The position numbers and the translations under genes are program-made. A stretch of DNA of 33,647 nt from a virus. The notes beneath the pieces are model-generated. The model had not been told where the DNA came from, did no database searches, and was given only the letters and a program-made list of their open reading frames with translations. Shown one piece after another: positions 1-30,028 of this stretch (positions are counted from its first letter, which is position 1; every line of letters begins with the position of its first letter). The stretch is from IMG/VR virus record IMGVR_UViG_3300009509_000068, positions 1 through 33,647 of that record; one strand, 5' to 3'.

Positions 1-99
1 ATTGCAGGGTCCCCCTCTGAAAAAACGTGGACTGAAGCAGTTGCAGAATTCCTAAAGGACAACGAAACAGATGATGATGACAGCGAGCGAACTGACTAA
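1..99 (+). CDS. 3' end of an unidentified gene (partial)
   Basis: The plus-strand frame starting at base 1 is open up to a TAA at 97-99 and gives 32 residues. The last part is very acidic (ETDDDDSERTD). The gene starts outside the window, so nothing can be said of its function. Its end overlaps the ATG of the next gene by 29 bases, which suggests one co-transcribed plus-strand unit. An acidic tail with a downstream overlapping start fits a compact phage gene. It is too short to match to a family. Confidence 0.55.
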   Translation: MAGSPSEKTWTEAVAEFLKDNETDDDDSERTD

Positions 100-844
100 A
101 GCTGACCAGTCATTCCCGGCTATAACTGGTAACATTGAAAAGGATACCGAGACCATAGTCAGCGAATTGGCAGTAGGTACATACGTTGTAGAACGTGGAA
201 TGGCTAGGTTGTATTTGGTATGGAAAACAAAGACGTTTCTAAACCTTACTGCAGTCCAGTTTACTTGCAAGTCTTGTGGATTTGTATATGAGGGCGAAGA
301 GTTTTCAGACGACGAATTTTGCCCACGGTGCGAGAGCGGGAATACAGAGGCAACGTATGTCCCGCTCTTCCCAACACTTGAGGCATATTTGTCCCATGTC
401 GCAGACATGACTGGCAAGAGCAGACAAACGCTTTTCAGCAGGCTTAGGGTATATCGAGTTCTTTGTGAGGAGCGCGGTGTTTTACCAGAGTCAGTATTCA
501 AGCTAACACTACTCAGTTCTGGAGCCGCATCTAAACTTGCATCGGCAGACGAAGATGCGGACAACGTAGAGCTAAAGAATGACTCGTGGCAGGAAACCGT
601 TGATACTGCAATTGGCGTAGGAACAAAGTCGGGAGCGCTAGAATACATTAAGTATGATGTGCTAAAAGAAACAAAAATCACTGCCGTTATAAGCCTTGCG
701 ACTAAAAGCGGGACAGTGTTTAGGGAGTATAACGACGGCGAAGATAAGTTTGTATTAGAAGAGTATAAATTTGTACTAAGTGGCGAATGGCCTGACCAAG
801 TGACAGATTGGCTTGTCGGGAAGCTTGGGGCTAAGGCAGAATAG
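71..844 (+). CDS. Zinc-ribbon protein of unknown function
   Basis: A 257-residue protein. A four-cysteine zinc ribbon is visible at about residues 66-87: CKSC, then an acidic linker, then CPRC. It is followed by a helical stretch (about 105-160) that includes TGKSRQTLFSRLRVYR, which looks like a helix-turn-helix recognition segment but is not certain. The C-terminal third is mixed alpha/beta and acidic. The gene starts with three ATGs in a row (71, 74, 77). AAAGGA about 11 bases upstream favours the first. It is the only complete plus-strand gene and lies just upstream of the large structured RNA, so a regulatory or nucleic-acid-binding role is reasonable but inferred. No named family is recognised. 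Confidence 0.75.
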   Translation: MMMTASELTKADQSFPAITGNIEKDTETIVSELAVGTYVVERGMARLYLVWKTKTFLNLTAVQFTCKSCGFVYEGEEFSDDEFCPRCESGNTEATYVPLFPTLEAYLSHVADMTGKSRQTLFSRLRVYRVLCEERGVLPESVFKLTLLSSGAASKLASADEDADNVELKNDSWQETVDTAIGVGTKSGALEYIKYDVLKETKITAVISLATKSGTVFREYNDGEDKFVLEEYKFVLSGEWPDQVTDWLVGKLGAKAE

Positions 845-857
845 CATGGTTACATTC

Positions 858-886
858 GGTACAAAGTGATACAATTCGCGTATAAT
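858..886 (+). promoter_or_regulatory. Promoter of the large structured RNA
   Basis: A perfect TATAAT lies at 881-886. Seventeen bases upstream, 858-863 reads GGTACA, which shares only the ACA end with TTGACA, so the -35 is weak. The predicted start is near 893, at the run of G that opens the structured RNA. No ribosome site or start codon follows, which fits a noncoding product. The stretch from 845 to 857 holds nothing else that I can see. Confidence 0.6.
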
Positions 887-892
887 TATCGT

Positions 893-1360
893 GGGGCACA
901 AAGACAGGTGCTATACACAGCGGAGTACCGCTGCACCCCGCAACTTCTCCGGGCTTAATAATGTACGGTGCGTGCCTTGAAAAAGCACGCGAAGCATACT
1001 GTACGGCGCGAAGAGGGAGCGGGTGGCGCAGGACTGCCTCCGGTCAATAAGACCTTGTCGGCCAACCGCCACGAGATGGCAGAACGGACATTTGCGCGAC
1101 GCGCCACCCTTAAATGAGAATTCTATGTATGAGGCGCAGCAGCCCTTCGGGGATATAGCAAGTCGCGGATATGCGAGAAATGGCATTGAGCGGAGGAACG
1201 GGGGGCGAATCGACGGGCCGCGTGTATAACCTGACAAGAGGGCTCCTTGCTATCGTGTGAATAGGGCTATATGCCACGACGAACGAAAGCACGATGGCAC
1301 ATAATAAAGGTAGGGCAGCGCGGCAGGACTAATTCCAAGTCCGCGTTGCCCTCTTTTTTT
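893..1360 (+). ncRNA. Large structured noncoding RNA, about 467 nt, family not assigned
   Basis: This is the only long gene-free stretch of the window. It is visibly richer in G+C than the flanks and full of complementary segments. Seen helices: CAGCGG/CCGCTG at 918-923/928-933, with GGTGC/GCACC at 907-911/933-937 stacked below it; a two-part stem 963-969/998-1004 and GCGTGC/GCACGC 970-975/985-990; a perfect 9-bp helix GGGTGGCGC/GCGCCACCC at 1021-1029/1101-1109 closing a loop with GGTC/GACC (1042-1045/1051-1054) and GCCA/TGGC (1068-1071/1077-1080); a UUCG tetraloop hairpin at 1143-1152; TCGC/GCGA at 1163-1166/1173-1176; a perfect 8-bp long-range helix ATAGCAAG/CTTGCTAT at 1155-1162/1246-1253; and TGCCA/TGGCA at 1272-1276/1295-1299. 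A promoter sits just before it and an intrinsic terminator ends it. Short ORFs on either strand cross the helices and lack ribosome sites. Size and phage setting recall GOLLD and ROOL RNAs, but that is inference. It lacks the recognisable cores of RNase P RNA, tmRNA and group I introns. Confidence 0.8.
1312..1360 (+). terminator. Intrinsic terminator of the structured RNA
   Basis: AGGGCAGCGC at 1312-1321 pairs with GCGTTGCCCT at 1343-1352 (10 bp, one G-U). Above a GGCA bulge, GGACT (1326-1330) pairs with AGTCC (1338-1342) around a 7-base loop. The stem runs straight into seven T at 1354-1360. The T run overlaps the TAA stop of the converging metallophosphoesterase gene. In the minus direction the hairpin is followed only by a broken T run, so it could stop late transcription there but less well. 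Confidence 0.92.
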
Positions 1361-2270
1361 ATTCTAAGAATGTGTAATCTGTAAATGACGGGTCATTCGC
1401 AAATAGATTCCCAACACCGTCCCTAACAACAACGAAGCTCTGTGTCATTACTGGAGCAGTGGAATCTGTTTGATTCGCGTAAGGGATAACCCCAGGGTCT
1501 GCCAAGCACCCATTATCTATAATGACGCTCTGTCCAGAATCGTCAAACCCCTTGCTGACTTTGTGCTGGTGGTGCGTGATGATATGTTGTCTGAATTTAT
1601 GTGCCAGCTTTTTGCCAACGCTCTGCGAATTTACACTATAGCTTGCCTGATGTGTTATTCGCCAATCACCGTTTATTGTGTCAAGTATACAATGAGAATA
1701 CTCATAAAAATTCACATTGTCTACACCGATCAACTTGCCCAATTCCTCATTGCCAACTTCGCCAAGCAACCGATATACAAATCTCAACTCGTGATTACCT
1801 AGCAATACTTCTATGTAGTCAAATACGCCTAGTGCGTCCTCTAGGAATTTCACTGTAACCTCTAGCTCTTCCCTAAAAGACGGCGTGTATGGGTTAGTAG
1901 CAATATATCTGCTAAACACGTCCATATTGAATAAGTCGCCAGCTATTATTAGGCGTCTTGGTTTCGGAAGTAGCACCATAGCTGTGTCTAACATAATGCC
2001 TGCAAAGTCATAGTCAAGGTATGGCAAATGCAGGTCGCCAGCAACAACTGCGTCGCCCTTGAACCTTGGTGGAGTGTCCCACCTTGTAAGAGCCTTCTGT
2101 GGCTTCCTAAGTTGACCAAGGTCGTTTACCTGCGCCCACTCTCTAAGCCTTCTGTCTAGTGTGGTTGGGCGAATACCGACTTTCTCTGCCAGCAGTTCAA
2201 CTGGTATACCAGCGATCTTTTGTGCAAGAAGAGAGTCTCTAACTGTAAACGTCAAGTCTTTCCATCCCAT
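1359..2270 (-). CDS. Metallophosphoesterase with N-terminal helix-turn-helix
   Basis: A 303-residue calcineurin-like phosphoesterase. The metal-binding motifs are all present in order: D79-x-H81, G111-D112, G158-N-H160-E161, H207, and H234-x-H236 (HHQH). Such enzymes use two metal ions to cut phosphomonoesters or phosphodiesters; the substrate is not evident. Residues about 20-48 (PVELLAEKVGIRPTTLDRRL) form a likely helix-turn-helix, so the protein may act on or at nucleic acid. The start is set by GGGAGGA seven bases before the ATG. It is the last gene of the minus-strand block and has its own promoter, so it need not be expressed with the tail genes. Confidence 0.9.
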   Translation of the reverse strand: MGWKDLTFTVRDSLLAQKIAGIPVELLAEKVGIRPTTLDRRLREWAQVNDLGQLRKPQKALTRWDTPPRFKGDAVVAGDLHLPYLDYDFAGIMLDTAMVLLPKPRRLIIAGDLFNMDVFSRYIATNPYTPSFREELEVTVKFLEDALGVFDYIEVLLGNHELRFVYRLLGEVGNEELGKLIGVDNVNFYEYSHCILDTINGDWRITHQASYSVNSQSVGKKLAHKFRQHIITHHQHKVSKGFDDSGQSVIIDNGCLADPGVIPYANQTDSTAPVMTQSFVVVRDGVGNLFANDPSFTDYTFLE

Positions 2271-5001: not shown

Positions 5002-6458
5002 TATTCTGTGCCCCTTATATTAAGGTAATACGGAGTATGATAAATATAGACAGGGCTTGCTTTAGATGGAACATATAGTCCTGCTACCTCAACAAGAAAG
5101 TACACCGTTGTTGCAACCCCAGGTTCTAGGTGAATTGGCAACCCGGTACCAATTCCAGACTGGAATATTGAAGACGTATATCCAAACCGAACCCAGTCTC
5201 TAATTCCATTATCTTCAATAAATGAGCCTGACGTGTCTGGGCCATTTGTCCCCATCAACTCCAACTTCCTGTAACAATAGTCTTCTGCGGGAAGCATCAT
5301 TAGGGCATCTACCCTAACATTCTTTGTTCCGCTGTCATCTGGCAATGCAGTAAGATATACATAGTTCCCGGTTGGTGTTTCTCCGTATGCAAAGTCAGAT
5401 GGTACTCTTTCTATCACACCAAGATCAAAAATATAGTTATTTGTTGCATGATAGTCTTGCGCTGGCCTATGTGCTTCATAATAGGTAAAAGACACTCCAT
5501 CTGGATTCGTGTTTGCCATTCTGTAAGTACACTCATTAGAGAAACTCCCAAGCGCAAATACTCTGACCTTGCCCTTCCCATACAGGGCTTGACCAATACC
5601 AAGGGCTTTCCTTAAAAGGTTGACCTCCACAGATGACGAAATGCTAAACTCGACGGCATATCCTCCAGTTGCATCTGTCCCTCCCGAATATGCAGTGCTT
5701 TTAGATGTTAGCGAACCACCGAAGGTCGCATAGTCCATACTCTCCGCCTCCCACTCCATGACAAAAGAGGAATTGTAATATGGTTTCGCGGCTACCCATA
5801 CAGGATTTCTAACGCCAGAATCAGAGCTATTCCCCTCTAGCTTAATCCTTGCAGGCCCAGGAATATCTCCATTTATTGCCGATCCTGCTATAGCAATATA
5901 ATTGTCATAATATGAATCATTCGTATTATTTATGGTGCCACTCCCCACCAAGACTTCCGCGCCTCTGGCAAATGGCTTGCATTCTAGCTCTAGCGAAAAG
6001 CCCTTTATTGTATCCTGGTCGCCAGTTGTAACCCAATTCAACGCCTCAACCGACATTATGTTGTCTGGCAATTTAAGGATGCCATATACAACGTCGAAAT
6101 AAACTGGATTTGTCAGCGTGTCGATCTGATACTTCAGGAATACTTTCCCAATGTCGCTTGGACGCATCTCTGCATTTATAGCTTGCCTGATTAACCGTCC
6201 TATAACGATCAATTTATCTACAATGTCGTCCCTGTCATCTCCTACTACCTCAAAGATAATTCGTATCCTTCTATTGTCATAAGATATGCCAGCAGCGGAA
6301 GACCCTGCATATCCTATATATCCACCAGTACGTGCGAGTGAAACCTGCGGCGTTTCTATAATAAGTCCGCCATCTTCGATTAAACACCATGATGTACCAC
6401 TAGACCCAACGAAGCTAACCGTAGTACTCCCGTCGCTAAGTTCCAAAATGTGTGCCAT
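5001..6458 (-). CDS. Distal tail protein (Dit-like)
   Basis: A 485-residue protein encoded directly after the tape measure gene, the usual place of the distal tail protein that joins the tail tube to the baseplate. The N-terminal 150 residues read as a Dit-type beta domain (MAHILELSDG, then RRIRIIFEVVGDDRDDIVDK, then FSLELECKPFARG). The remaining 300 residues contain a beta-rich extension (about 225-400) that may be a second, carbohydrate-binding-like domain. It is joined to both neighbours by TAATG stop-start overlaps, so the three tail genes are translationally coupled. Confidence 0.8.
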   Translation of the reverse strand: MAHILELSDGSTTVSFVGSSGTSWCLIEDGGLIIETPQVSLARTGGYIGYAGSSAAGISYDNRRIRIIFEVVGDDRDDIVDKLIVIGRLIRQAINAEMRPSDIGKVFLKYQIDTLTNPVYFDVVYGILKLPDNIMSVEALNWVTTGDQDTIKGFSLELECKPFARGAEVLVGSGTINNTNDSYYDNYIAIAGSAINGDIPGPARIKLEGNSSDSGVRNPVWVAAKPYYNSSFVMEWEAESMDYATFGGSLTSKSTAYSGGTDATGGYAVEFSISSSVEVNLLRKALGIGQALYGKGKVRVFALGSFSNECTYRMANTNPDGVSFTYYEAHRPAQDYHATNNYIFDLGVIERVPSDFAYGETPTGNYVYLTALPDDSGTKNVRVDALMMLPAEDYCYRKLELMGTNGPDTSGSFIEDNGIRDWVRFGYTSSIFQSGIGTGLPIHLEPGVATTVYFLVEVAGLYVPSKASPVYIYHTPYYLNIRGTE

Positions 6459-9400
6459 TATGCCATGCTCCTCCCAAGGTTCCTTGCCTTAAATCCAAGC
6501 TCTTGCCCAAGTTTTCTTGATACCTCTCTAACAATTCTATCAATATCATCATCACTTCTAACTGTGTTCCCGCTAACAGTTATGTTTACATTCGGCGGCG
6601 AATTCCCACCTCCTGCGCCAAATAGGTCTGGCAGTCTATCAAGCGGGATGATTGCCTCTGGAACATCCCCAACTATCGCAAGTTGTTCCTTGATCGCAAT
6701 GCCACCCTTTGCGAGTCTTGGTATACGCACTTCGCTAAGCAGCCCAATTTCGCCAAGACCTAATCCCTTAAGGACTTTGTTTACTGCACCAATAAGGTTA
6801 TTTATTCCATTTATGATGGTGTTGATCCCCTTTTCGAGAAAGTCGATCATGCCATTGATTGCAGCTTTGATTGCAGTCTCAACAGTCTCCTTTATGGTAT
6901 CAAATATCTCCTTAAAGTAATCTGCAATCTTGTCAAGACCCTCTTTGATCTTGTTCCACCAATCTGTTGCAATTTTCCCAAGCCATTCAACGCCCTTGTC
7001 TATAAGTCCTTTCAACCAAGGGACAAGTGTAGTTGTGATCCACGACCACAGCTTTGTAATGATCTCGCCAATCGCTTCTTTAAACTTTGCCCACCACTTT
7101 GGAAGGTTCTCTTTTAGGTATGTCGCAACCTTCTTCACCGTAGACACAATCCACGGTATCAACTTTGTGGTGATCCAGTTCCATAGTCCAGTTATAATTG
7201 TTCCAAGGACTTCTCTGAACTTTGCCCACCAGCCAGGCAGATTTTCCTTAAGGTATGCCACGACCTTTTGTACCGTTTCTACAACCCACGGGATCAGCTT
7301 GGTCGAAATCCATTCCCACAGCGCTGCAGCAATAGTCCCAACTGTTTCCCAAAACGCCTTGAACCAAATCGGCAGGTTTTCTTTTAGGTATGCCCACACC
7401 TTCCCGACGATCTCCACGACCCAAGGAATTAGAGTTTCTGTTATCCACGCCCACAACTTCTGCGCGGTTGTCACCAGCCAGTTCCTGAACGCCTCCCACC
7501 AGATAGGCAGGTTCGTTTGCAAGAATGACACGACCTTTGCAATAATTTCTATCACCCACGGCAAAAGAACAGTTGTGATCCACATCCACAACTTCTGTGC
7601 GGTTGTTGACAGCCAAGTCCTGAACGCCTCCCACCAAATAGGCAGGTTCGTTTGCAAGAACGTCCAGACTTGTGTAATCAAGTTCGAGACCCAAGGAATT
7701 AGGACTGTCGTGATCCAACTCCACAACTTCGCCGCCGTTTCAGACAACCAAGTCTTTATTGCTTCCCACCAGATTGGCACATTCGCTTGTAGGTATTCCC
7801 ATACCTTGCCAACCACGTCCTTTACCCAAGGAATCAACGTGCCCGTTATCCAAGGCCACAATTTCTTGCCGATGCCAATGAGCACTTTTGGAACCATTGT
7901 CATCATACTGCCAAGTAACTTCTTGAAGTTTTTTAGTACATCTGGCAATATTTTCTTTAGTGCCTCAAATGCACCCTTGATGCCTCCCTCCTTAAATCCC
8001 TTCTGTAGCGCCGCAATAATTGGATTTAGGAATTTGTAGAGTCTGTAGAACATATCTACAACAGGCCCAAGTATTTGCTTGAATGGGCCAAGAACTTTAG
8101 CCAATACAGAGAACCCTTTCTCTGCACCACCAGTCTTGAATGCCACGGATACAAATTCCGCAGCTTTTTTGATGTATGCAAGGAACTTCTTGAACATATC
8201 AATGACTGGCTGGAATGGCTTGAGTAGCTTTTTAAACCACTCCTTGATGCCGTTTACAATGTCTGGAATGATCGAGTTCCCAATCAGCTTGTTCCACAAG
8301 TTCTTGAAGAACCCAATTATCTTGTTGACAAAGTCGCTAATCTTCTTTACAACTCCTTGTAGGCCAAATAGATTAACAAGGCCGTCAACAAGGCTCCTGA
8401 CTATACCCATAACAGTGTCGAATATGCCAAGGAACACGCCACCGATAGCCTTTAGGAGTCCCTTTAGAACGCCCATAACAGCGTCCTTGATCTTTCCCCA
8501 GGCTTCTTTCAGTTTCTCTTTTCCGGCCTCAGTGTCACCAGTTATGAGTTTCCACAAGCCCTCAAAGAACAACACTATTCCGCTGAGTATGTCAAATATT
8601 GCTTTGACTAGCTCGATTATACCCTTTATGACTCCACCGAACACCTTGCCAAGTGCAGGGAGTATGATCTTTATTAGCCCGGCAACAATTTGAAGTGCCT
8701 TTGTAAATGCACCAGCAATAAACTTGGCAACTGGTTCAATCTTTTTGTATATATCCTCAAGGACGTCGCCAAACTTTTTGCCGCTGCCCTCACCAATGCC
8801 AAGCGCGGACTTTATATTTTCCATAAAGCCCTTAACGGCACCTGTTATATTATCCCAAATTTGTACAAAAGCGTCACGGAATTTGTCCCAATTGCGCTTT
8901 ATATAGACGCCAGCCGCGACGATGACGCCGACAACTGCAAGAACGACTGCAATGATACCCGATGCCGCTGCAACAAATGTCGCTATAGAACCAGCGGCAC
9001 CTGCTATTGTAGAACCTATACCAGCAATTGCAGGGCCAATTGTGCTAAGCCCACCTGAGAAGATGCTAAAGAATCCCTTGATTGACCCAAGAACTTTCCC
9101 TCCAAACATCTTTGCGGCTTCGCCAGGAAAATCTTTTACCCAGCTAAGTCCAAGCTTCCAGAATGACAACTTTGACTTTATTGCCCCGCCGATTGTTCCA
9201 AGCGCGGATGGGATTTTCTTCATCCCGTCCTTGAAATACATGGCCCTGAGCGCAAGAGTCTGCATAGCACTCCCGGCCTTCTTCCCTGCCTTGGGCCACA
9301 CTGTCGTTGACCAAGTCGCAAGGCTAGATAGCGGACCACCGACTTTTGTCAACCCCCTAAAAGCATCTCCGAATTTGCCTATCACAGAAGGAGCAACTAG

Positions 9401-12400
9401 CCAGCCAGCAAGCTTTAATAGTGGATTCCTTAGTAAGAACAATGACGCAGCGAATGTTCCCAAAATCGGCGCATATTTTTGGAAGGCACTCCCCATCTCG
9501 GTTGTGCCGTCCGTTATTCCAGATTCCCCAATCGCATCACCAACTCCACCGAATATAGACTTTATTCTGTCCTTGAATGACTCTATACCAGTCTTTATGT
9601 TTTCGAATGTTTGGCTAACTGTATCCCAAACGTCCTTTATTTTCTTGCCCCATCCATAAAACTTTGTTGCGCTCTCGTCAAGCGCACCGGCCATTGCAGC
9701 GAGTTCTTCTTGAGGTATCGCACCTAGAAGCCCCTCAGATATATCTCCAAATAGGCTCATGTCAATTTCGGTCGGAATAAGGTCTTCGCCAGAGAATCCC
9801 TGTACAAACGCTTCCCAAAGTGCCTTGCCCTTCTCAAGTGTGTTTGTTACAGTACCACCAAGGTCGGCGATCTTTCCAACAAATCCAGCGATGTCCTCTG
9901 CCCCGCTTGCGTAGTCGGACGTGTCAACTGGCGGAATTAGTGTATCTGGCACCGACATATTCAACGAGTCTTCTAGCTCGCGTATTCTGTCGATGTTGTC
10001 ACTTAGCATTTGCTCTTCGGCCTCAGACAGCTTTAGCCACTCGTCCTCTGGCTTAGTCTTGTTCAAGTCCTCATACATGAGCTTCTTTTCCATGAGGGCT
10101 TTCACAAGCCTCTTGCGCAGGCTAAGCTCTTCACGAAGCAATGGCGTCGTGTCCATGCCACGAGACTCATACAGTTCTTGCAGTCGCTTGTTGACCTCAA
10201 GTTGTCTTAGCAAGTCTGCTATTAAATCTGCAATCTTGTCGGCAAGCGACTTTATGCTACTCCCAACTCCCTCAATGGTTTTCTTTAGCTTCTTAAGCGC
10301 CTCAAGATAATTTAGAAGAGCGTCGTCCTGGTCTTGAAGCGCTCCAATGTACTCCTGCTGCCATTCAACTTGAGTCTTTAGGCTGTCAACATTCTCTTGC
10401 GCTACTTGTTCCTCTGTCTCTGCATTCGACAGCGCAAGGTCTCGCCTCTTTTTTGCCGCCCTGATAGCAGCAAGCTTCTCTGCTTCTGTTAGGTCTGTGC
10501 GCGCAGCAATTGCACGAGCCTCTGCCTGGTATGACTCTTCAATATCAGACTTCTTCTGCTTTATCTTCTCAAGCTCTTTTAATGCCTGATTGTATTGAAG
10601 CTGGAGTCTTAGCAGTTGTACGATCTCGTCACCTGCTTCGCCAAGCATATCTTCTATCTTGCCAAGTATATCTTCGGCAATGACTCCCGTCTTGTTGAAC
10701 ACATCAATCAATTCGGAAACAAGAGTCCTGGCATCTGCAAGTGCTGCCCCAATATTGACTTCGTCCATTTGGCCTATTGCCGCCATATTCTCAAGGACGC
10801 TGGCTATAATCTGTGAGACCTTTTTTAGTATCCCGAAGTCTGCATTTAGGAACCCTTGTAGGTAGGTGTCTATAAGCCTTGAGCCCCATTCATTAATGGA
10901 GCTAAGTGGGCCTGCCTCTGGAGGAGAGTGGCCCTCAAGGAACATAGAAATAATGCCACCAACAAACTCTAGGGCGCGAACCAGTGTGCTCGCGGCTGCT
11001 GAAACAATGCCCTCAGCTATATTGGCAATTAGATTGTCTCCCCAGTCAAACGCCCCTTCTGCTATTTCGTGCAGCTTGTCAGTTATAACATCAAATCCGT
11101 CTCCAGACTTGAGCAGTGCTATAACAAGACCTCCGCCAAGTATCGCGGCAAGACCACCAAGGAGTGTTGATATAAGCGACAGCCCACCACCGAACGTCGC
11201 GAATGTTGCAATGAGTCCGACAAGACCCCCAATAAGGTTAACAGCACCATTCACAATCATGGACAGGCCGAATCCGATAGAACCCAATAGCGCGAGCAGT
11301 GGCAGCCCAACCACTAGGAATGCCGCTGCCCCAACTGCCATCATTTTTTGTTCTACTGTCAACTTCCTGACCCAGTCTGTTAATTCTTGCACTGCGGGAA
11401 TCAATGCGCTAATTATCTCCTGCGCGACTGGCAACAGGTCTTCTGCAAAAACATACCCGACTTCAAGTACTGCGTTCTTCAAAATGTCGAACTGTGTCGC
11501 AGTCGCGGTCAGGGCACGTTCGAACTCGACCTGGAGTGATGTTCCGTCCTCAAACGCCTGGTTTGAAATTGCCATCATTTGTTGCAGTTCTGGATACGCC
11601 GCAGCAAACCGCTTAACTGCATTAGCGCCAGTAGTTCCAAAAATGTCCATAGCAACCTGAGTTGCCATTGTGGCGTCTTCAATCTGTCCTATCGCATAAA
11701 CCATCTCCATGAAAGTTGGCAGCGCTTCTTCATTTAGCTTGTTAGCCATTTCTTCTGTGCTAATACCAAGTAGCTCTGCGGCCTTTTTGTAGTTAATGGT
11801 CATCTGTTCAAGGGCAACGCGGACCCTTGTACCACCACGAGACATACTCTCCGACATCTGCGTGATCGAAGTTGCAAGTCCTGCAACGTCAGCGGCAGAC
11901 AGGCCAAGCGTTGATGCCGCAGGTGCTATTCTAAGCATTGCGCCAACAACTTCGTCTTCTGAGACGGACGAAGATTGACCTAGCTCGTTAATTGCCGATC
12001 CTAGATTTTCGATTGTAGTTGTGTCTATCTCGTCAAAGAGCGTTATGAATCTCGAAAATGCAGTTGCTGCTTCGTTAGCATTTAGCGTAGTAGAGACTTG
12101 CATCATGTCCATAACGCGGACAAATTGTAGAATCTCTTCTCTCGCTGCGGCAACATTCCCGGCAAGCATATTGCCAAGTCCAACACCAGCGCGACCAGCT
12201 TCGCCTGCAAGATCAGCAAGGTCTTTTGCCGTTGTCGGCGTTGTCATTGCCATCTTGCGAAGTTCTTCTCCAAGTATGGCAACTTGGTCTTTTGCCATGC
12301 CAGTCGTCTTTTCGACTTCGACTAGCTTCTTTTCAAATGAGGTAGCTTCCTCTGCAACCTTTTTCAGTGCACCTGCAACAGGAAGCCCGATCATTGCAGA

Positions 12401-12586
12401 CATTGTGAACCCAAGGTTCTGAACGCCCTGGGCCATCTGGCGAATACCAGTAACGGCCTGCGACGACATTGCTACCACAGACCGTATACTCGCCCCAAAT
12501 GACTTCATGGAACTTCCAAGGCTTGCAAACTCGCGCTTGGCTTGAGACGTATTAGCTTTGACTTCAATAATTACAGGAGTCGCCAC
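6458..12586 (-). CDS. Tail tape measure protein, TP901-type N terminus
   Basis: A 2042-residue protein, the largest in the window. It sets tail length and is ejected with the DNA. Residues about 80-340 match the TP901-family core (GEELRKMAMTTPTTAKDLAD). Residues about 415-492 form a long hydrophobic block that could cross the host membrane. A HSPPEAGPLSS motif and a charged coiled coil (RDLALSNAETEEQVAQEN) follow. More hydrophobic stretches lie near the middle. Residues 1575-1889 are seven tandem 45-residue Trp-rich repeats. The C terminus has the usual ending (RIPRLAKGGIAIKEQ then EAIIPLDRLP). At about 1.5 angstrom per residue the tail would be near 300 nm. It starts at GTG inside TAGTG, overlapping the HNH gene. 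Confidence 0.96.
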   Translation of the reverse strand: MATPVIIEVKANTSQAKREFASLGSSMKSFGASIRSVVAMSSQAVTGIRQMAQGVQNLGFTMSAMIGLPVAGALKKVAEEATSFEKKLVEVEKTTGMAKDQVAILGEELRKMAMTTPTTAKDLADLAGEAGRAGVGLGNMLAGNVAAAREEILQFVRVMDMMQVSTTLNANEAATAFSRFITLFDEIDTTTIENLGSAINELGQSSSVSEDEVVGAMLRIAPAASTLGLSAADVAGLATSITQMSESMSRGGTRVRVALEQMTINYKKAAELLGISTEEMANKLNEEALPTFMEMVYAIGQIEDATMATQVAMDIFGTTGANAVKRFAAAYPELQQMMAISNQAFEDGTSLQVEFERALTATATQFDILKNAVLEVGYVFAEDLLPVAQEIISALIPAVQELTDWVRKLTVEQKMMAVGAAAFLVVGLPLLALLGSIGFGLSMIVNGAVNLIGGLVGLIATFATFGGGLSLISTLLGGLAAILGGGLVIALLKSGDGFDVITDKLHEIAEGAFDWGDNLIANIAEGIVSAAASTLVRALEFVGGIISMFLEGHSPPEAGPLSSINEWGSRLIDTYLQGFLNADFGILKKVSQIIASVLENMAAIGQMDEVNIGAALADARTLVSELIDVFNKTGVIAEDILGKIEDMLGEAGDEIVQLLRLQLQYNQALKELEKIKQKKSDIEESYQAEARAIAARTDLTEAEKLAAIRAAKKRRDLALSNAETEEQVAQENVDSLKTQVEWQQEYIGALQDQDDALLNYLEALKKLKKTIEGVGSSIKSLADKIADLIADLLRQLEVNKRLQELYESRGMDTTPLLREELSLRKRLVKALMEKKLMYEDLNKTKPEDEWLKLSEAEEQMLSDNIDRIRELEDSLNMSVPDTLIPPVDTSDYASGAEDIAGFVGKIADLGGTVTNTLEKGKALWEAFVQGFSGEDLIPTEIDMSLFGDISEGLLGAIPQEELAAMAGALDESATKFYGWGKKIKDVWDTVSQTFENIKTGIESFKDRIKSIFGGVGDAIGESGITDGTTEMGSAFQKYAPILGTFAASLFLLRNPLLKLAGWLVAPSVIGKFGDAFRGLTKVGGPLSSLATWSTTVWPKAGKKAGSAMQTLALRAMYFKDGMKKIPSALGTIGGAIKSKLSFWKLGLSWVKDFPGEAAKMFGGKVLGSIKGFFSIFSGGLSTIGPAIAGIGSTIAGAAGSIATFVAAASGIIAVVLAVVGVIVAAGVYIKRNWDKFRDAFVQIWDNITGAVKGFMENIKSALGIGEGSGKKFGDVLEDIYKKIEPVAKFIAGAFTKALQIVAGLIKIILPALGKVFGGVIKGIIELVKAIFDILSGIVLFFEGLWKLITGDTEAGKEKLKEAWGKIKDAVMGVLKGLLKAIGGVFLGIFDTVMGIVRSLVDGLVNLFGLQGVVKKISDFVNKIIGFFKNLWNKLIGNSIIPDIVNGIKEWFKKLLKPFQPVIDMFKKFLAYIKKAAEFVSVAFKTGGAEKGFSVLAKVLGPFKQILGPVVDMFYRLYKFLNPIIAALQKGFKEGGIKGAFEALKKILPDVLKNFKKLLGSMMTMVPKVLIGIGKKLWPWITGTLIPWVKDVVGKVWEYLQANVPIWWEAIKTWLSETAAKLWSWITTVLIPWVSNLITQVWTFLQTNLPIWWEAFRTWLSTTAQKLWMWITTVLLPWVIEIIAKVVSFLQTNLPIWWEAFRNWLVTTAQKLWAWITETLIPWVVEIVGKVWAYLKENLPIWFKAFWETVGTIAAALWEWISTKLIPWVVETVQKVVAYLKENLPGWWAKFREVLGTIITGLWNWITTKLIPWIVSTVKKVATYLKENLPKWWAKFKEAIGEIITKLWSWITTTLVPWLKGLIDKGVEWLGKIATDWWNKIKEGLDKIADYFKEIFDTIKETVETAIKAAINGMIDFLEKGINTIINGINNLIGAVNKVLKGLGLGEIGLLSEVRIPRLAKGGIAIKEQLAIVGDVPEAIIPLDRLPDLFGAGGGNSPPNVNITVSGNTVRSDDDIDRIVREVSRKLGQELGFKARNLGRSMA
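6920..7864 (-). repeat. Seven tandem 135-bp repeats inside the tape measure gene
   Basis: Seven in-phase units of 45 codons fill 945 bases. Each begins KLWxWITxxLIPWV and continues with about eight residues, then V-x-x-[FY]-L-[KQ]-x-N-[LV]-P-x-W. Trp positions are kept while linker residues vary, and the last unit is the most divergent. The period fits two helices per unit with Trp at fixed points. Long open frames on other strands across this stretch are products of the periodicity. Confidence 0.9.
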
Positions 12587-13377
12587 TATTCGCTACATTC
12601 CCCCATGAACTCTGCCAACTCGATTTCTGTCACACCAAACGCGCCGTAGCTCGCGTGAAATTCCATGTGGCATCTATCGCACAGAGTTATTCCGTTCTCA
12701 ACATCAACCCGTAACGACTTATTCTCAGTGTATGGTCTTATGTGGTGAGCGTGTAGTGGCCCATCAGAACCACAACACCTGCACATATAACCATCACGTT
12801 CCAAAACTTCCTCTCGCCACGCCTGGTGCGCAGCCTCACTATGTCGACTATATCTATCTTCGTCGGACTTTGTCGCATCCCACATTGGGTTCTTTTCGCC
12901 AGTCATTCCGCTCATGCGCTCGCTAGAAATCTCCCGCTGCAAGCAGCCACAAGACTGCGTTGCGCCAGAGGACAGGGCAGAAGCCTCAACCTCTGTTTCA
13001 TTCCCGCACTCACACAGGCAGTTATAGTAATACTGCCCACGATTCCCGCGCCTGTCAGAAAGCCCTTGGACATATAGCCTCCCAAAGGTCTTATCAGTCA
13101 AGTCCTCAAAGTTCGCAACTTTAGACCCACACTTTTGACAATAAGTATTGTCCTTCCCAGCTATTGACTGCCAAGCAACTTTCCTAGTTAGCTTGCACTC
13201 TGGACACTGAACAAGAACCTTGATTTTTGACTGCTCAGGAAGATCGCTGACATCAACACGAAAAGTGTCACCCATAGCAGTATACTTGTACCCGCGTTCA
13301 ACATAGTGTCCTTTAGTTCTTGTAGACCACTTAACCTCAACGCGGTCATTCAGAACTACAAACTTGTCGCCCGTCAT
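12586..13377 (-). CDS. HNH endonuclease with zinc fingers and a NUMOD3-like motif
   Basis: About 263 residues. From the N terminus there is a zinc knuckle (CPEC to CQKCG), a second cysteine set (CLCECG to SCGCLQRE) seen in many phage HNH proteins, a NUMOD3-like motif (GMTGEKNPMW), and a C-terminal HNH domain: RDGYMCRCCG, then HAHHIRPY, then GITLCDRCHMEFH. The HNH fold uses the His-Asn-His set with one metal to cut DNA. I start it at the ATG at 13377, which forms an ATGA overlap with the preceding gene. A GTG at 13395 would add six residues. It separates the chaperone genes from the tape measure, where most siphoviruses have nothing, so it is probably a free-standing homing endonuclease. Confidence 0.9.
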   Translation of the reverse strand: MTGDKFVVLNDRVEVKWSTRTKGHYVERGYKYTAMGDTFRVDVSDLPEQSKIKVLVQCPECKLTRKVAWQSIAGKDNTYCQKCGSKVANFEDLTDKTFGRLYVQGLSDRRGNRGQYYYNCLCECGNETEVEASALSSGATQSCGCLQREISSERMSGMTGEKNPMWDATKSDEDRYSRHSEAAHQAWREEVLERDGYMCRCCGSDGPLHAHHIRPYTENKSLRVDVENGITLCDRCHMEFHASYGAFGVTEIELAEFMGECSE

Positions 13378-13757
13378 TTTACCTTCTTCCACCACTCTGG
13401 ATCGCTAAAGTCAATCACGTTCCCCGACTCGTCATAAGCAACGCTTTTTGGAGGCTCTGCAAGGCGCTTCTTGATTGCAGCTATTCTCTTTTGCTCTATC
13501 CACGGCGCGAACGTCTTTTCCAAAGTCTTGCGTAGCTCTTTAGAGTACGTCCTTAGCGACTTTGCGAATTTCTTGTCCTGTGGAGTCCTAGCTAGAGGCA
13601 TAACTGCAGTCATGGTTTGCCAGTACAAATTTTTATCCTCCATAATGAATCTGTAAGATTCTAAGGCCCACTCTTCGCCATACTCTTCTATATGAGCAAG
13701 AATCTGCTCGTCAGTGAACCCGTAAGCCTGCCTAATCTGATGCTTGACCCTCTTCAT
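13374..13757 (-). CDS. Second tail assembly chaperone (gpT-like)
   Basis: A 127-residue helical, basic protein just upstream of the tape measure region and overlapping the previous gene by 26 bases in another frame. In lambda-like phages the second chaperone reading frame is made as a frameshift extension of the first and binds the tape measure and tube protein. Here it could be made from its own ATG (GGAG three bases before, a short spacing) or by a +1 shift from the previous gene at TTT-TTT-C. Residues such as DEQILAHIEEYGEEWALESY are typical of chaperone helices. Role is inferred from place, size and overlap. Confidence 0.75.
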   Translation of the reverse strand: MKRVKHQIRQAYGFTDEQILAHIEEYGEEWALESYRFIMEDKNLYWQTMTAVMPLARTPQDKKFAKSLRTYSKELRKTLEKTFAPWIEQKRIAAIKKRLAEPPKSVAYDESGNVIDFSDPEWWKKVK

Positions 13758-18317: not shown

Positions 18318-18632
18318 CTATTGCCTTGATGAACTTACTGGAGCTTTGTGGTAAATTGCCTGCGATGTGAAAAAGCCTCCAATAATGGTTGCAATCGCGA
18401 CAATTACTCCCCAATATGGCTCAACATATTCAAGCACGCCAAATTCAAGAACCAAAGTCCCACCAACTCCCAAAAGGATTGTAACTCCAATGGTGATTGC
18501 CATAGCAGCCCACCCTTCGAGATTCGGCCAAAGCTTCTTGATTAACCCAACAAGAAATGTAACCCCGACTCCAAGGCCAGCAGTCGAAGTAAGCCATACC
18601 ACAAAACTCTGTGCGGTTAAAAACTCACCCAT
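18318..18632 (-). CDS. Holin-like small membrane protein
   Basis: About 104 residues with three hydrophobic helices (about 12-30, 42-66, 75-93) separated by short loops, and a polar C terminus. It has no lysin-like domain. A pair of ATGs follows AGGAGG; the second (18632) has better spacing than the first (18635). Size and membrane layout fit a holin, which forms lesions for lysin release. The lysin is about 6 kb away in the same operon. Other small membrane proteins at 30795-30029 are competing candidates. Confidence 0.65.
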   Translation of the reverse strand: MGEFLTAQSFVVWLTSTAGLGVGVTFLVGLIKKLWPNLEGWAAMAITIGVTILLGVGGTLVLEFGVLEYVEPYWGVIVAIATIIGGFFTSQAIYHKAPVSSSRQ

Positions 18633-18641
18633 CATATCCTC

Positions 18642-18992
18642 CTAAATATCACTTACTCTTTCTTTCACATTTATCGTCCTGTCGTAGACGACGTGTTCTT
18701 TAGTGCCATCATACCACACTATGTCAATATAATAAGAACCAACCGTTAGCGCCTCTGTCGTTGCGGGTTCTAGATTCCAGTATGCAGTCCCAGTCGCGCC
18801 ATATGTCGCGACGTCTGCATTCTGTTGAAGAATAGCAGCGCCATCGGCGTCGGACTTGCTCGACTTAATTGTCAACGTAACTGTGTCGGCTGTTATATTT
18901 TGGGCGACGCCCCCCTTCTTGCAAAGGACAGTTATCTCAACAGTCTCTCCTAAGAAAAAGTCACCTATCATTCCTACAATTATTTTAGCCAT
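18642..18992 (-). CDS. Ig-like or BppU-type domain protein
   Basis: A protein of 116 residues from the ATG at 18992; GGGG eight bases before favours it over a TTG three bases upstream. The sequence is a single beta-sandwich: KIIVGMIGDFFLGETVEITV, then DTVTLTIKSSKSD, then YWNLEPATTEALTVGSYYID and a last VYDRTINV strand. This is the layout of N-terminal domains of phage baseplate BppU proteins. It follows the repeat-fibre gene and may dock that fibre. Confidence 0.65.
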   Translation of the reverse strand: MAKIIVGMIGDFFLGETVEITVLCKKGGVAQNITADTVTLTIKSSKSDADGAAILQQNADVATYGATGTAYWNLEPATTEALTVGSYYIDIVWYDGTKEHVVYDRTINVKERVSDI

Positions 18993-19024
18993 CAATAAAC
19001 CCCACTGAATACAATCGCATCAAA

Positions 19025-21199
19025 TTAACAGTCATAATCATATTCTACACTATCTTCAAAAATATTGCAAGTGATATTGTCAACAATCACATTAATGATA
19101 ATGTTCGGACACGGCACTCCAATGATCACTGCGTCGGCAGTAAAGACGCCTGCTCTCGCAACAACAATCCAGGCGTCTGCTGTAAAACTGCCAAGGCCAG
19201 GAGATATAATCCTTGCGTCCGCAGTAAACGACTGACCTACCGTCTTTTTGATATTCGCATCTGCTGTAAATGATACTTCTTGTACGGAAAGTATAATTGC
19301 GTCTGCAACAACGGACGAACTAATCGCTCTTGCGACAATCGCGTCAGCAGTTATACTGCCAGATATATACTGCCCAATAATCGCGTCTGCCGTAACAGAA
19401 CCAACAGAGCCCTTCTTTACAACTGCGTCGGCTGTTACGCTACCTGGAGTTGCCTTGCTGATAATCGCATCTACAGTAAAGCTTCCTGCCTGCCCGACCT
19501 TTACCACCGCATCTACGGTGAATGAATCTTCGGTCGCCTTGGCAATTATAGCGTCCGCAGTCACAGACCCGCTTCGCGCTATTTCTATCCAGGCGTTTGC
19601 TGTAATAAACTGGCTCTTCCCCTTCTTGATAATAGCGTCGGCAGTAATAGATTCCACACCAGTAACGCTAATATAGGCGTCGGCAGTTATGCTTTGTGCC
19701 TTGCCCTTCTTGACAATTGCGTCTGCCGTTATAGAATCGCTAATGATTTTTTGCAACCATGCGTCTGCCGTGACGCTTTGGCTCTTGCCCTTTTTAATGA
19801 CTGCGTCTGCCGTTATAGATTGTGCAGAAGCCTTCTCAATTATTGCGTCTGCGGTTATGCTGTCACTCGCGCTTGCGACTATGATTGCGTCTGCGGTTAC
19901 ACTTTGGGCTTTGCCTTTCTTGATTATGGCGTCCGCCGTAACCGCTCCACCACCTGCGCCAAGTGTAATATATGCGTCTGCAGTAAACGACTGAGCCTTG
20001 CCCTTCTTGATTATGGCGTCGGCGGTTATAGGCCCAACAACAATAACTTCAATGACGGCGTCGGCAGTTATAGACTGGGCCTTTCCCTTTTTAATGACTG
20101 CGTCTGCGGTGATATAATTTTCTGGCGCTGCGGCAATAACGGCGTCTGCCGTAAACGACTGGGCCTTGCCTTTCTTGACTACGGCGTCTGCTGTGACAGC
20201 ACCACTTTTCGCGCTCTTGATTATTGCGTCGGCAGTTACAAACTGCGCCTGGCCCTTCTTGATAATGGCGTCAGCAAGAATCTCCCCAGCAGACGACACA
20301 ACAATCAACGCGTCTGCTGTAAACGACTGGGCCTTGCCTTTCTTTACAATCGCATCAGCGGTAAAACCATCTTCAGTCTCTGCAAAAATAAGTGCGTCGG
20401 CAGTTATAGCGCCAGTAACTGCCTTTTTGATAATTGCGTCTGCAGTCAACGGGCCAGATGTATATGTCTCAATGATGGCGTCTGCAGTTATTGATTGGGA
20501 CTTGCCCTTCTTAATAATGGCATCGGCGGTAATAGAGTCTTCTACCGTGCCACCACTAGCCTCATTGAAGTTTACGGCAAGTGCGCTCCAGTTCGGCGTA
20601 CTTGAAGAAGATTGCCACGCTAAATATCCACTGCTTCCTACATACGCAACAGAAACAACCGTGCCGCCCTGGTCTGTTTCTGTAGCCTGAGTTCCAGTCG
20701 TAACAGAAATAACTGCGGGGTTTCCCTCATCTGTCGTTGCTGCCGCGACAGTCATAGAACCAGAAATAGCACCAGAAACGGTTATGTCGAACGTGGCACT
20801 TGTCGAAGCGTTATTTGTGTTACTTGCCTGAACAGGATCAGACTGGTCAACCGTTATAAGATCAATCGCGGTGGAACACCCACTTGTTACCTTGGAGGCA
20901 TGAGTAACCTGAACATTAGCAGTAACTCCACCAAGGTCTGCACCATACGTTGTCTCTGTAATAATCCACGCTTCTGTATAGAAGTTAAGTGATGTATCAA
21001 TAAATTCTGCTGCCCATGCCAATGCGTGACCATTAAATGTTACTCCAGTAACATTGGCATCGGAAGAACTTGAGTCAACTGCCTGCACCAATACTACAAG
21101 AAGGTCTGTATCGGCGTGTGTCGTATGGGAAAACGAATAGCTAGTATTGATGTTATTATAGTTTCCAGATGGGGTATGGTTCCCCTTGGTGATCGCCAT
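19025..21199 (-). CDS. Long repeat fibre protein with 34 tandem 14-residue repeats
   Basis: A 724-residue protein. Residues 1-220 form a beta-rich N-terminal domain (YSFSHTTHADTDLLVVLVQA to TPNWSALAVNFNEA) of a kind seen in phage and surface adhesins. Residues about 222-698 are 34 tandem units with consensus S-[IVF]-T-A-D-A-[IV]-[IV]-K-K-G-K-A-Q. The last 26 residues are different (NIIINVIVDNITCN, ending DYDC). The units suggest a beta-solenoid rod with alternating surfaces. There is no signal peptide. The gene starts in a TAATG overlap with the cysteine-cluster gene. A tail fibre or head decoration protein is the most likely role. Confidence 0.8.
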   Translation of the reverse strand: MAITKGNHTPSGNYNNINTSYSFSHTTHADTDLLVVLVQAVDSSSSDANVTGVTFNGHALAWAAEFIDTSLNFYTEAWIITETTYGADLGGVTANVQVTHASKVTSGCSTAIDLITVDQSDPVQASNTNNASTSATFDITVSGAISGSMTVAAATTDEGNPAVISVTTGTQATETDQGGTVVSVAYVGSSGYLAWQSSSSTPNWSALAVNFNEASGGTVEDSITADAIIKKGKSQSITADAIIETYTSGPLTADAIIKKAVTGAITADALIFAETEDGFTADAIVKKGKAQSFTADALIVVSSAGEILADAIIKKGQAQFVTADAIIKSAKSGAVTADAVVKKGKAQSFTADAVIAAAPENYITADAVIKKGKAQSITADAVIEVIVVGPITADAIIKKGKAQSFTADAYITLGAGGGAVTADAIIKKGKAQSVTADAIIVASASDSITADAIIEKASAQSITADAVIKKGKSQSVTADAWLQKIISDSITADAIVKKGKAQSITADAYISVTGVESITADAIIKKGKSQFITANAWIEIARSGSVTADAIIAKATEDSFTVDAVVKVGQAGSFTVDAIISKATPGSVTADAVVKKGSVGSVTADAIIGQYISGSITADAIVARAISSSVVADAIILSVQEVSFTADANIKKTVGQSFTADARIISPGLGSFTADAWIVVARAGVFTADAVIIGVPCPNIIINVIVDNITCNIFEDSVEYDYDC
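19106..20536 (-). repeat. 34 in-frame 42-bp coding repeats, partly paired as 84-bp units
   Basis: Each 42-base unit encodes 14 residues with T-A-D-A almost unchanged. Positions 9-14 vary, and in the first two thirds every second unit keeps KKGKAQ or KKGKSQ, giving an 84-base higher-order repeat. One unit has an extra Gly. Synonymous sites differ widely between units, so the DNA copies are old or kept apart while the protein pattern is selected. Confidence 0.9.
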
Positions 21200-22019: not shown

Positions 22020-22394
22020 TTATTTCATGTACAGTCTTACAAAGCTAGGCTCTTCGTTGGCTTCTATCATCCCATCTGGATAGACCCACACGATTGACTT
22101 TATTGCAACACCATCTGAAGTTGTCTTTTGCCACCCTATGGCATAGAGCCTAATTTCCTTATTACTTGTTATTTGTCCGATAACGCGACTAAATACAATC
22201 CACTTCTTGTCACCAGCCAGGTCTACAGAGACCGCCTGGCGCTGAATGCCACTCTTCGGCACAAGGGCCATTGTAACTGCGTTGTCCAAAATCTTACTGT
22301 GTGTCTCTATCCAATCTGGCTCTTCGCCCCAATTGATAAGCACTCCAGTTTCTCCGTCGGAAACAACTATGTTATATTCAATGTCCCTAGTCAC
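22020..22394 (-). CDS. 124-residue protein, first of a tandem paralogue pair
   Basis: The GTG at 22394 is chosen: GGAGG stands five bases upstream and the resulting protein equals its paralogue in length. An ATG at 22421 would add nine residues and overlap more. Residues include INWGEEPDWIETH, VFSRVIGQ, EIRLYAIGWQ and VWVYPDGMIEANEEPSF. The start lies inside the last codons of the sulfotransferase-glycosyltransferase gene (GTGACTAG), so translation is coupled to it. Function is unknown. Confidence 0.78.
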   Translation of the reverse strand: MTRDIEYNIVVSDGETGVLINWGEEPDWIETHSKILDNAVTMALVPKSGIQRQAVSVDLAGDKKWIVFSRVIGQITSNKEIRLYAIGWQKTTSDGVAIKSIVWVYPDGMIEANEEPSFVRLYMK

Positions 22395-23829
22395 CGTCTC
22401 CTCCGATATAGCGCAGCGCATTTATGGCCGCGTCCTTATTCGCGTCAAGCAGCGGTATGGCTTCCTCCAAAATGGGAATCAAGTCTACTGCATTAAACTC
22501 AACGACGTCTGGCCTTGACTGTCTAGCCATCCACGACTTGAAATCAGTCCACCCCTGGGCCTTCTGCCCAATGTGGTATGGTTTAGCAATTGTGTCAATC
22601 CCAATTCTAAACCCTAGTTCCCTTGCACGTCTAAAGAAGTAAATGTCCTCAGACTCCCTACCTCTATCATACATAAAATAGTCTGTAAAGTTCGGGCCAT
22701 ACTCATTAGTCATTGCTTCCAAAACGTGCCTCTTGATCAAGGTAAATGCAAGCCCAGTCGCATCTACATCTATAATGTCTCCATCCTCAACGTCAACAAC
22801 TCTGTCAAAAGCGTCTCCGTTCAGGCTGACTGGTATTGGTGGTTGCGGGTCTAGCAGCCTAAATGTTACTGGCAATGGAGGCCAGTCTCTTTTTGTACAA
22901 AACCCTGCAACGATGTCATAATCCCAATTTGCCTTATTAGAACGAAGTCTCTCCAACTCGTCTTGTTCAAAGATCATGTCGTCGTCAACAAATAGCAAGC
23001 TATTCTGTTCCGACTCTAAGAACTCACGAACAACTTCGCTCCCGGCCCAATGGGCAGGCATCCACCCTCTAGGCATCAAGATCGCATCTCCTGGCCTTGT
23101 TCCACCAGTTAGTAGCTTTGTCCAACTTAAAAAGAAGTGGTACTCAGGAAACTTTGCAATCCTTGTCCCAATTGCTATTCGTCCCCATCCGTCTACTGCT
23201 GGCTTGACATATCTCGCTTGCCACTTCCCGTCTTTGTCCCAACTTACAAAGTTCGGCCTGATGTGCCTTATGGCGTCAAAAATATCATCTTCGCCAGGAG
23301 GCTCCATTCCATCGAACACAAAGTCAACAATGCTGCTTACTGCCACTTCTGGAGTTGCTACAAGCGCGTCAAAGTCGACAACAATATATGCACCACCATA
23401 TTCGGAAAGGAACTTTACCATTGTATTGTGTACTACGTCGTACCGCTCTTCTGCAACCGTCCTGTCAACTCCATATGCTCGCACAACGGAGTTTATGGTT
23501 GCCTCCCTATTTCTGTGAGCAACAACAATCCTTACGTCGTCACCAAAGAAGGGCAAATACTCTCCAAGGAGCATCGTTAGATGCGGGTCTTTCACTCCCC
23601 AAATAGGTGCATCTTCACTACGGATAGAGACATATTCGTCGAGCCATCCAGTTCCAAGCCCTTCCCTGCTGCGCCTAAAGAAACTTACATCTTCGTAAGT
23701 CCCAAGGCGATTATTCTTATCTGCTGGCACAAACTCAATTCCCATAGGAATACCAAGTTTGTGCAACACTCCAGAGACAGCAGAGGTCCCAGACCTCCCA
23801 GTCCCCACTACCAGAACTACTCTACTCAT
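22387..23829 (-). CDS. Sulfotransferase and GT-A glycosyltransferase fusion
   Basis: A 480-residue protein with two parts. Residues 1-200 look like a P-loop sulfotransferase: VVGTGRSGTSAVSGVLHKLG (8-26) is the 5' phosphosulfate loop, with the WGVKDPHLTML segment and AHRNREATINSVVRAYG (104-120) as the 3' phosphate region. Residues about 215-430 look like a GT-A glycosyltransferase with a metal-binding LLFVDDDMIF (278-287), DVDATGLAFTLIKR and the late SEDIYFFRRARELGFRIGID. Either domain could act on a sugar; together they could add a sugar and sulfate it. GGAGG precedes the ATG. The pairing in one chain is unusual. Confidence 0.82.
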   Translation of the reverse strand: MSRVVLVVGTGRSGTSAVSGVLHKLGIPMGIEFVPADKNNRLGTYEDVSFFRRSREGLGTGWLDEYVSIRSEDAPIWGVKDPHLTMLLGEYLPFFGDDVRIVVAHRNREATINSVVRAYGVDRTVAEERYDVVHNTMVKFLSEYGGAYIVVDFDALVATPEVAVSSIVDFVFDGMEPPGEDDIFDAIRHIRPNFVSWDKDGKWQARYVKPAVDGWGRIAIGTRIAKFPEYHFFLSWTKLLTGGTRPGDAILMPRGWMPAHWAGSEVVREFLESEQNSLLFVDDDMIFEQDELERLRSNKANWDYDIVAGFCTKRDWPPLPVTFRLLDPQPPIPVSLNGDAFDRVVDVEDGDIIDVDATGLAFTLIKRHVLEAMTNEYGPNFTDYFMYDRGRESEDIYFFRRARELGFRIGIDTIAKPYHIGQKAQGWTDFKSWMARQSRPDVVEFNAVDLIPILEEAIPLLDANKDAAINALRYIGGDGD

Positions 23830-29548: not shown

Positions 29549-29684
29549 CTTGCTCTTTCACCTTCTCCCTACAATCACTGCAATAAATCTCCGCAACAAT
29601 TGTAGAAATTAGCTTCCCGCACCTAATACAGTGGAACCTATTTGCAGGCTTCATTTTATCATACTTGCTATATACCACTGCCAT
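29505..29684 (-). CDS. Small zinc-ribbon protein
   Basis: 59 residues from ATG 29684, chosen for AGAGG six bases upstream; a longer frame from 29777 would lie wholly in the previous gene. It has a CIRCGK and CSDCRE pair, a four-cysteine zinc ribbon. The ends overlap the previous gene by 17 bases and the protease gene by about 44, so it is tightly packed. Function is unknown; small zinc ribbons are common near phage head genes. Confidence 0.65.
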   Translation of the reverse strand: MAVVYSKYDKMKPANRFHCIRCGKLISTIVAEIYCSDCREKVKEQVARDDGELSQNPCE

Positions 29685-29973
29685 AAGGTGCCTCTCTTGC
29701 GGCTTCTGCAATATCGCTAAGGATTTGAGAAGCCCTAACCTCTCCAATGTTCTTGATTCCAAGTAAGAAGTCCTCACCAGCAGACAGTAACATCTTTGCC
29801 GTGATTGCCCTTACTCCGCCACCGTAGTCAACTAACTCTCCGTGCACCCTTTCTTCCCACGCAGCGTAAATCTTTCTCACGATACTAGAATCTAGTATAA
29901 AATCTATTGCATACGTGTCGTCGGGGAATGCACTCATTCTGTAACCCAACGACCCACTTGACCAATCAAACAT
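29668..29973 (-). CDS. Small protein of unknown function
   Basis: A 101-residue soluble protein with an AGGAGG ribosome site seven bases before the ATG. A helical C-terminal half (LLGIKNIGEVRASQILSDIA) has a helix-hairpin-helix look (IKNIGEVRASQIL), which would suit DNA contact, but one motif is thin evidence. It lies between the membrane proteins and the zinc ribbon gene. Confidence 0.6.
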   Translation of the reverse strand: MFDWSSGSLGYRMSAFPDDTYAIDFILDSSIVRKIYAAWEERVHGELVDYGGGVRAITAKMLLSAGEDFLLGIKNIGEVRASQILSDIAEAAREAPYGSGI

Positions 29974-29987
29974 TCCAACGCCTCCTA

Positions 29988-30017
29988 TTTATACCATACA
30001 TTCTTATACCAAGTCAA
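29988..30017 (-). promoter_or_regulatory. Possible promoter upstream of the 101-residue protein gene
   Basis: On the minus strand, TTGACT (30017-30012) and TATAAA (29993-29988) are 18 bases apart. The predicted start would fall at the ribosome site of the gene itself, so either the start is slightly upstream or this is chance. Low confidence. Confidence 0.35.
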
Positions 30018-30028
30018 ATGACCAATGA

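Follow-up and report, generated by a model that had tools for sequence, protein, structure and literature searches.

A conserved structured RNA gene in a wetland-sediment bacteriophage that matches no catalogued RNA family

A 33.6-kb virus record, analyzed over its whole length (the window), derives from a bacteriophage of wetland sediment and carries on its plus strand a real, free-standing gene for a structured RNA. The folded shape of this RNA is preserved in related phages more than its sequence. The first-pass annotation had proposed a large structured noncoding phage RNA at this place, and the compensatory changes in related phages, together with the lack of a conserved reading frame, bear this out. 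Conserved structure, the strand and the absence of a conserved frame are established, as is synteny, which is full in one relative and partial in another; that a structured RNA exists here is in our judgment close to certain.

Genomic Setting and Ends of the RNA Gene

On its minus strand, the window has phage genes, those for head, portal, and endolysin among them. The RNA gene is located between a plus-strand gene for a zinc-ribbon protein and a convergent phosphoesterase gene (Table 1). The intergenic region (845-1358) comprises 514 bases without an open reading frame (ORF) of at least 120 aa, in line with the earlier statement that no credible ORF accounts for it, and is GC-rich as described (56% versus 47% window-wide). 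None of 100 dinucleotide shuffles folds as well as the plus strand (z -2.7). For the zinc-ribbon protein, neither a confident predicted fold (pLDDT 59.5) nor a PDB match at E<=0.001 was obtained.

The TATAAT element reported in front of the RNA is perfect and also occurs in L003, one of the two related contigs described below. In both sequences it is separated by 7 nt from GGGC, the opening of helix P1. The proposal that the RNA has its own promoter thus holds for the -10 element but less well for the remainder, as the -35 box of the window is weak and a promoter scan returned zero sigma-70 sites in the window; in L003 the scan reported TCAACA-17-TATAAT. The strong terminator noted behind the RNA was likewise recovered as a hairpin and T run that are plain on reading the sequence. 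It was not detected by the terminator scan, owing to the scan's rules on loop length or tail. L003 and the second related contig, L002, carry terminator hairpins at the equivalent place, but with unrelated sequences.

Table 1. Features of the RNA gene and its neighbors in the window.
Feature	Position	Strand	Remarks
Zinc-ribbon protein gene	71-844	+	Rubredoxin-like zinc-ribbon match, sub-threshold; 64% identity to the L003 neighbor
-10 element TATAAT	881-886	+	Perfect, read from the sequence; also in L003
P1 closing helix	893-897/1242-1246	+	Pair probability 0.99 in the window
Noncoding RNA, inferred transcript of ~465 nt	~894-1358	+	5' end placed by the distance to the -10 element, 3' end by the terminator
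P2 long-range helix	905-918 with 1222-1233 (905-909/1229-1233, 912-918/1222-1228)	+	12 bp common with L003
P3 arm	963-1004 (963-968/999-1004, 970-975/985-990)	+	12 bp common with L003
Conserved motif GACCUUnUCGGC region	1051-1063	+	Sequence kept in L003; second arm, predicted partner 1204-1219, from the two-sequence consensus fold only
Second-arm helix	1075-1078/1184-1187	+	Common with L003, one two-sided change
Conserved motif GCGAAUCRnnRGGCC	1205-1219	+	Kept in 3/3 sequences
3' domain hairpin	1248-1299 (stem 1248-1258/1289-1299, tip 1265-1267/1273-1275, loop UAUAU 1268-1272)	+	
Intrinsic terminator	1312-1360	+	Stem 1312-1323/1341-1352, probability 0.99, then T run
Metallophosphoesterase gene, convergent	1359-2270	-	phrog_221, E 3e-11; 70-71% identity in L002 and L003

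Relatives in Wetland Sediment

An IMG/VR search with the phosphoesterase identified two other contigs, L002 and L003, whose source samples are Mai Po wetland sediment (PMC6461988). The 73.9-kb contig L003 retains the whole arrangement of zinc-ribbon protein (64% identity), RNA, and phosphoesterase (71%). Its full-length RNA of ~575 nt lies in an ORF-poor stretch of 619 bases between the neighboring genes, and its major capsid protein is 94% identical to that of the window. In L002, the phosphoesterase (70%) and the 3' ~200 nt of the RNA are present up to the contig end; therefore, the 5' part of its RNA and its zinc-ribbon gene cannot be judged. The comparison set accordingly consists of two full-length RNAs and one partial RNA.

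Further genes were seen along these contigs. A very long ORF of 2042 aa (6458-12586, minus strand) shows 57-58% identity in both relatives, and an HNH endonuclease gene (12586-13395, minus strand) is retained in both at 71% identity. Relatives of the protein encoded at 19025-21199 (minus strand) match many times and with overlaps in contigs L023, L027, and L033, a pattern as for repeated or multi-copy sequence. Within the structural gene block, the product of 22387-23829 (minus strand) gave a weak match to a sulfotransferase-like domain, and the PHROGs that it matches are glycosyltransferase-like. Two more stretches of the window, 18355-19024 (670 bases) and 29549-30028 (480 bases), are devoid of ORFs of at least 120 aa, and short genes may be present there. 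A DnaB-like helicase gene is situated ~2 kb from the RNA of L003, and near this helicase gene, at 10327-10809 (minus strand), the contig encodes a protein that matches sigma-70 region 2 (E 5e-6).

Conservation of the Fold

The RNAs were folded separately, their pairing profiles were aligned with a home-made structure aligner, and the pairs predicted in both RNAs were counted. The window and L003 RNAs, which are 60% identical across structure-aligned positions (224/373), share 44 pairs, 19 of them changed at both bases, 8 at one, and 17 at none. In 200 dinucleotide shuffles of L003 the maxima were 28 common pairs and 11 two-sided changes, while 200 identity-preserving shuffles, with identical columns fixed and the letters at differing positions shuffled, reached at most 29 and 9, respectively. 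The antisense strand yielded 6 common pairs and a single two-sided change. Nine homologous protein-coding comparisons from the same phages (both strands, 64-78% identity) gave 4-45 common pairs and no more than 3 two-sided changes. Since one of these coding controls reached 45 common pairs, pair totals alone do not discriminate, and it is the two-sided changes that do.

A six-frame translation comparison of the two full-length RNAs, run with composition correction off, produced only short weak matches (best E 0.004, 23 residues, 30% identity) and no conserved reading frame.

Architecture of the RNA

Helix P1 closes a domain at the predicted 5' end of the transcript, and an independent fold of the L003 RNA shows the equivalent closure by CGUAGGGC/GUCCUACG (p 0.99). 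The 12 pairs of the long-range helix P2 include 7 with two-sided changes relative to L003, 3 with one-sided changes, and 2 unchanged pairs. In the 3' hairpin, 95% of cells are paired across the three sequences and 6 pairs show two-sided changes; its covariation score was reached by none of 500 shuffles, and slid versions all scored far lower. The UAUAU loop of this hairpin is invariant in all three sequences, and GAWCGAA, i.e., GA(A/U)CGAA, is also kept in all three. The conserved letters are mostly found in loops and bulges, while the helices, which include G-U pairs, vary freely. The L003 RNA has longer arms and an additional hairpin ahead of its terminator.

Some elements singled out by the first-pass annotation are not part of this conserved architecture. 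The UUCG hairpin is present (1143-1152) but is not retained in L003. Two long-range helices, 1021-1029/1101-1109 and 1155-1162/1246-1253, are exact to the letter; however, they lie outside the minimum-energy fold and are not conserved. For the former, the aligned L003 positions, read by eye, have no complementary counterpart. For the latter, positions 1246-1253 clash with the covariation-supported stem of the 3' hairpin, and base 1246 is also used by P1.

The invariant UAUAU loop might base-pair with an AUAUA at 1153-1157, and an equivalent partner occurs in L003 from RNA position 304. The chance of finding AUAUA in both 100-nt stretches is ~0.04, and the motif was picked after looking; it is therefore only a lead.

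Searches for Known Families and Further Members

None of the 4227 Rfam models matched the window at the gathering threshold, and a cutoff of E<=10 likewise gave no hit in the RNA region. The L003 copy had five sub-gathering matches, with no large phage RNA among them; the best, SR1 sRNA (E 0.014), was terminator-driven and on the opposite strand, and all five were judged to be chance. The designation as unassigned therefore stands. The GOLLD and ROOL covariance models gave no match in the window or in the L002 and L003 regions, ARAGORN found neither tRNA nor tmRNA in the window, and a blastn search of phage and plasmid sequences with the RNA as query returned only a 26-nt chance match.

The zinc-ribbon and phosphoesterase proteins had zero matches among phage records, the phosphoesterase was not found in GTDB genomes, and alignment-guided IMG/VR scans for both neighbors as well as a helicase scan recovered known contigs only. 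The contigs G003-G007 of the phage group showed nothing convincing for the zinc-ribbon gene and the RNA, although they may not extend into this region. When IMG/VR and the GTDB genomes were scanned for RNA motifs, a strict pattern found only the two known viral contigs. A looser pattern added four viral and four genome contigs, which were judged to be chance from reading their flanks: no upstream CGAATC-GGCC motif was seen in them, and they were mostly coding-looking sequence. A covariance model of the 3' domain, run on 25 sources, scored strongly only on the three copies that had served to build it; two further matches were partial and weak (E 0.12 and 0.78). To judge from these searches, the RNA family looks rare in the IMG/VR and GTDB genome collections.

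Possible Function of the RNA

Our leading, though still tentative, reading is that the gene represents a new, rare family of large phage RNAs that acts as a folded RNA in trans; the size of the RNA, the conserved fold and loops, the dedicated -10 element and terminator, and the location in a phage suit such a role. In the mechanism that we infer, from transcription to action in trans and any assembly, transcription would begin ~7 nt past TATAAT (near 894), terminate by means of the hairpin near 1358, and yield a transcript of ~465 nt that is not translated. The 5'-terminal nucleotides of this transcript would pair with 1242-1246 and thereby close a multibranched domain consisting of P1/P2 and two long arms, followed by the separate 3' hairpin with the invariant UAUAU loop and then by the terminator. 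Selection would preserve the fold and the short motifs GCGAAUCRnnRGGCC, UAGGRCnUAUAUGYC, and GAWCGAA over the sequence. In trans, the RNA might associate with copies of itself, or else it might hold a ligand or protein; it would then resemble GOLLD and ROOL in its mode of action while forming a family of its own. Self-assembly is put forward by analogy to these two RNAs.

That conserved letters fall largely in loops and bulges while the helices change freely would also fit a trans-acting regulatory RNA or a protein sponge, whose short conserved loops (UAUAU, GAWCGAA, and the GAAU bulge) are binding sites for a protein of the host or the phage, or base-pair with an mRNA. We regard this explanation as possible but rather less probable, as ~465-575 nt is large for a simple sponge and no confident fold singles out the adjacent zinc-ribbon protein as a partner.

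A more specific proposal is that the new family is confined to a little-known group of tRNA-rich sediment phages and forms, through palindromic UAUAU kissing loops, an RNA-only particle unlike those of GOLLD and ROOL; it allows an alternative, internal UAUAU-AUAUA contact with 1153-1157. We consider it unlikely. Slightly more doubtful still is that the RNA is a structured untranslated or spacer part of the transcript of the zinc-ribbon gene, with termination and stabilization between the convergent genes as its main task. The RNA does directly follow the zinc-ribbon gene, and its terminator faces the phosphoesterase gene; however, it has its own TATAAT at equal P1 spacing in L003, and 19 compensated pairs and conserved internal motifs would be superfluous for a simple spacer.

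The helicase gene near the RNA in L003 might hint at a replication origin or another DNA element with hairpins acting in DNA. This is very improbable, since the congruence of the folds is confined to one strand (44 versus 6 common pairs), the conserved helices contain G-U pairs, and the promoter and terminator suit a transcript. Least probable of all is a divergent GOLLD or ROOL RNA, which the size class and the tRNA-rich phage group might suggest, given that the Rfam models left the window unmatched, that L003 has no GOLLD or ROOL match, and that the RNA is shorter than the 659-nt ROOL and >800-nt GOLLD examples (PMC12286853).

Comparison With Known Large RNAs

GOLLD and ROOL form RNA-only cages and are often found near tRNA islands or in tRNA-rich phages (PMC12286853). 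We predicted 25 tRNA genes on the related contig G004 and 14 on the L003 contig (G002); one tRNA of G002/G004 has an undefined two-base anticodon call. Along the L003 contig, which is not closed, the RNA is ~40 kb from the nearest tRNA (26.7 versus 67.3 kb) and, within this contig, does not appear to lie in a tRNA island. Of the kinship with GOLLD or ROOL raised by the first-pass annotation, the similar setting in a tRNA-rich phage group remains, but membership as a divergent representative is unsupported.

Like the RNA described here, ROOL is large, structured, and noncoding; it occurs in phages and prophages, frequently in tRNA-rich surroundings. The solved ROOL, however, has 659 nt and forms an octamer cage (PMC12286853), while the present RNA of ~465 nt has no Rfam match. 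GOLLD, another large RNA of tRNA-rich phages, is conserved in its 3' region and varies more in its 5' part; the present RNA resembles it in that conservation is highest in the 3' hairpin and motifs. In contrast, GOLLD often exceeds 800 nt (PMC12286853), and a 14-mer cage is known for GOLLD only. The ~600-nt OLE RNA is similarly ornate and forms dimers (PMC12286853), but it is bacterial and has known protein partners. The ~800-nt noncoding transcript of ICP1 and the lncRNAs of phage K are likewise large, unassigned phage RNAs (PMC7567579, PMC9241854); they are known from RNA-seq, whereas the RNA of this study is known from conserved structure.

Significance

Large RNAs of phages rank among the biggest for which no function is known. 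As metatranscriptomes exist for the L002 and L003 samples (SRR7284884 for MaiPo-9 and SRR7286715 for MaiPo-11; PMC6461988), expression of the RNA can be checked without new sampling. The RNA described here joins the small set of big phage RNAs of unknown job and matches no catalogued family. Being a somewhat smaller family without an Rfam match and from tRNA-rich phages, it offers an independent case for what such RNAs do.
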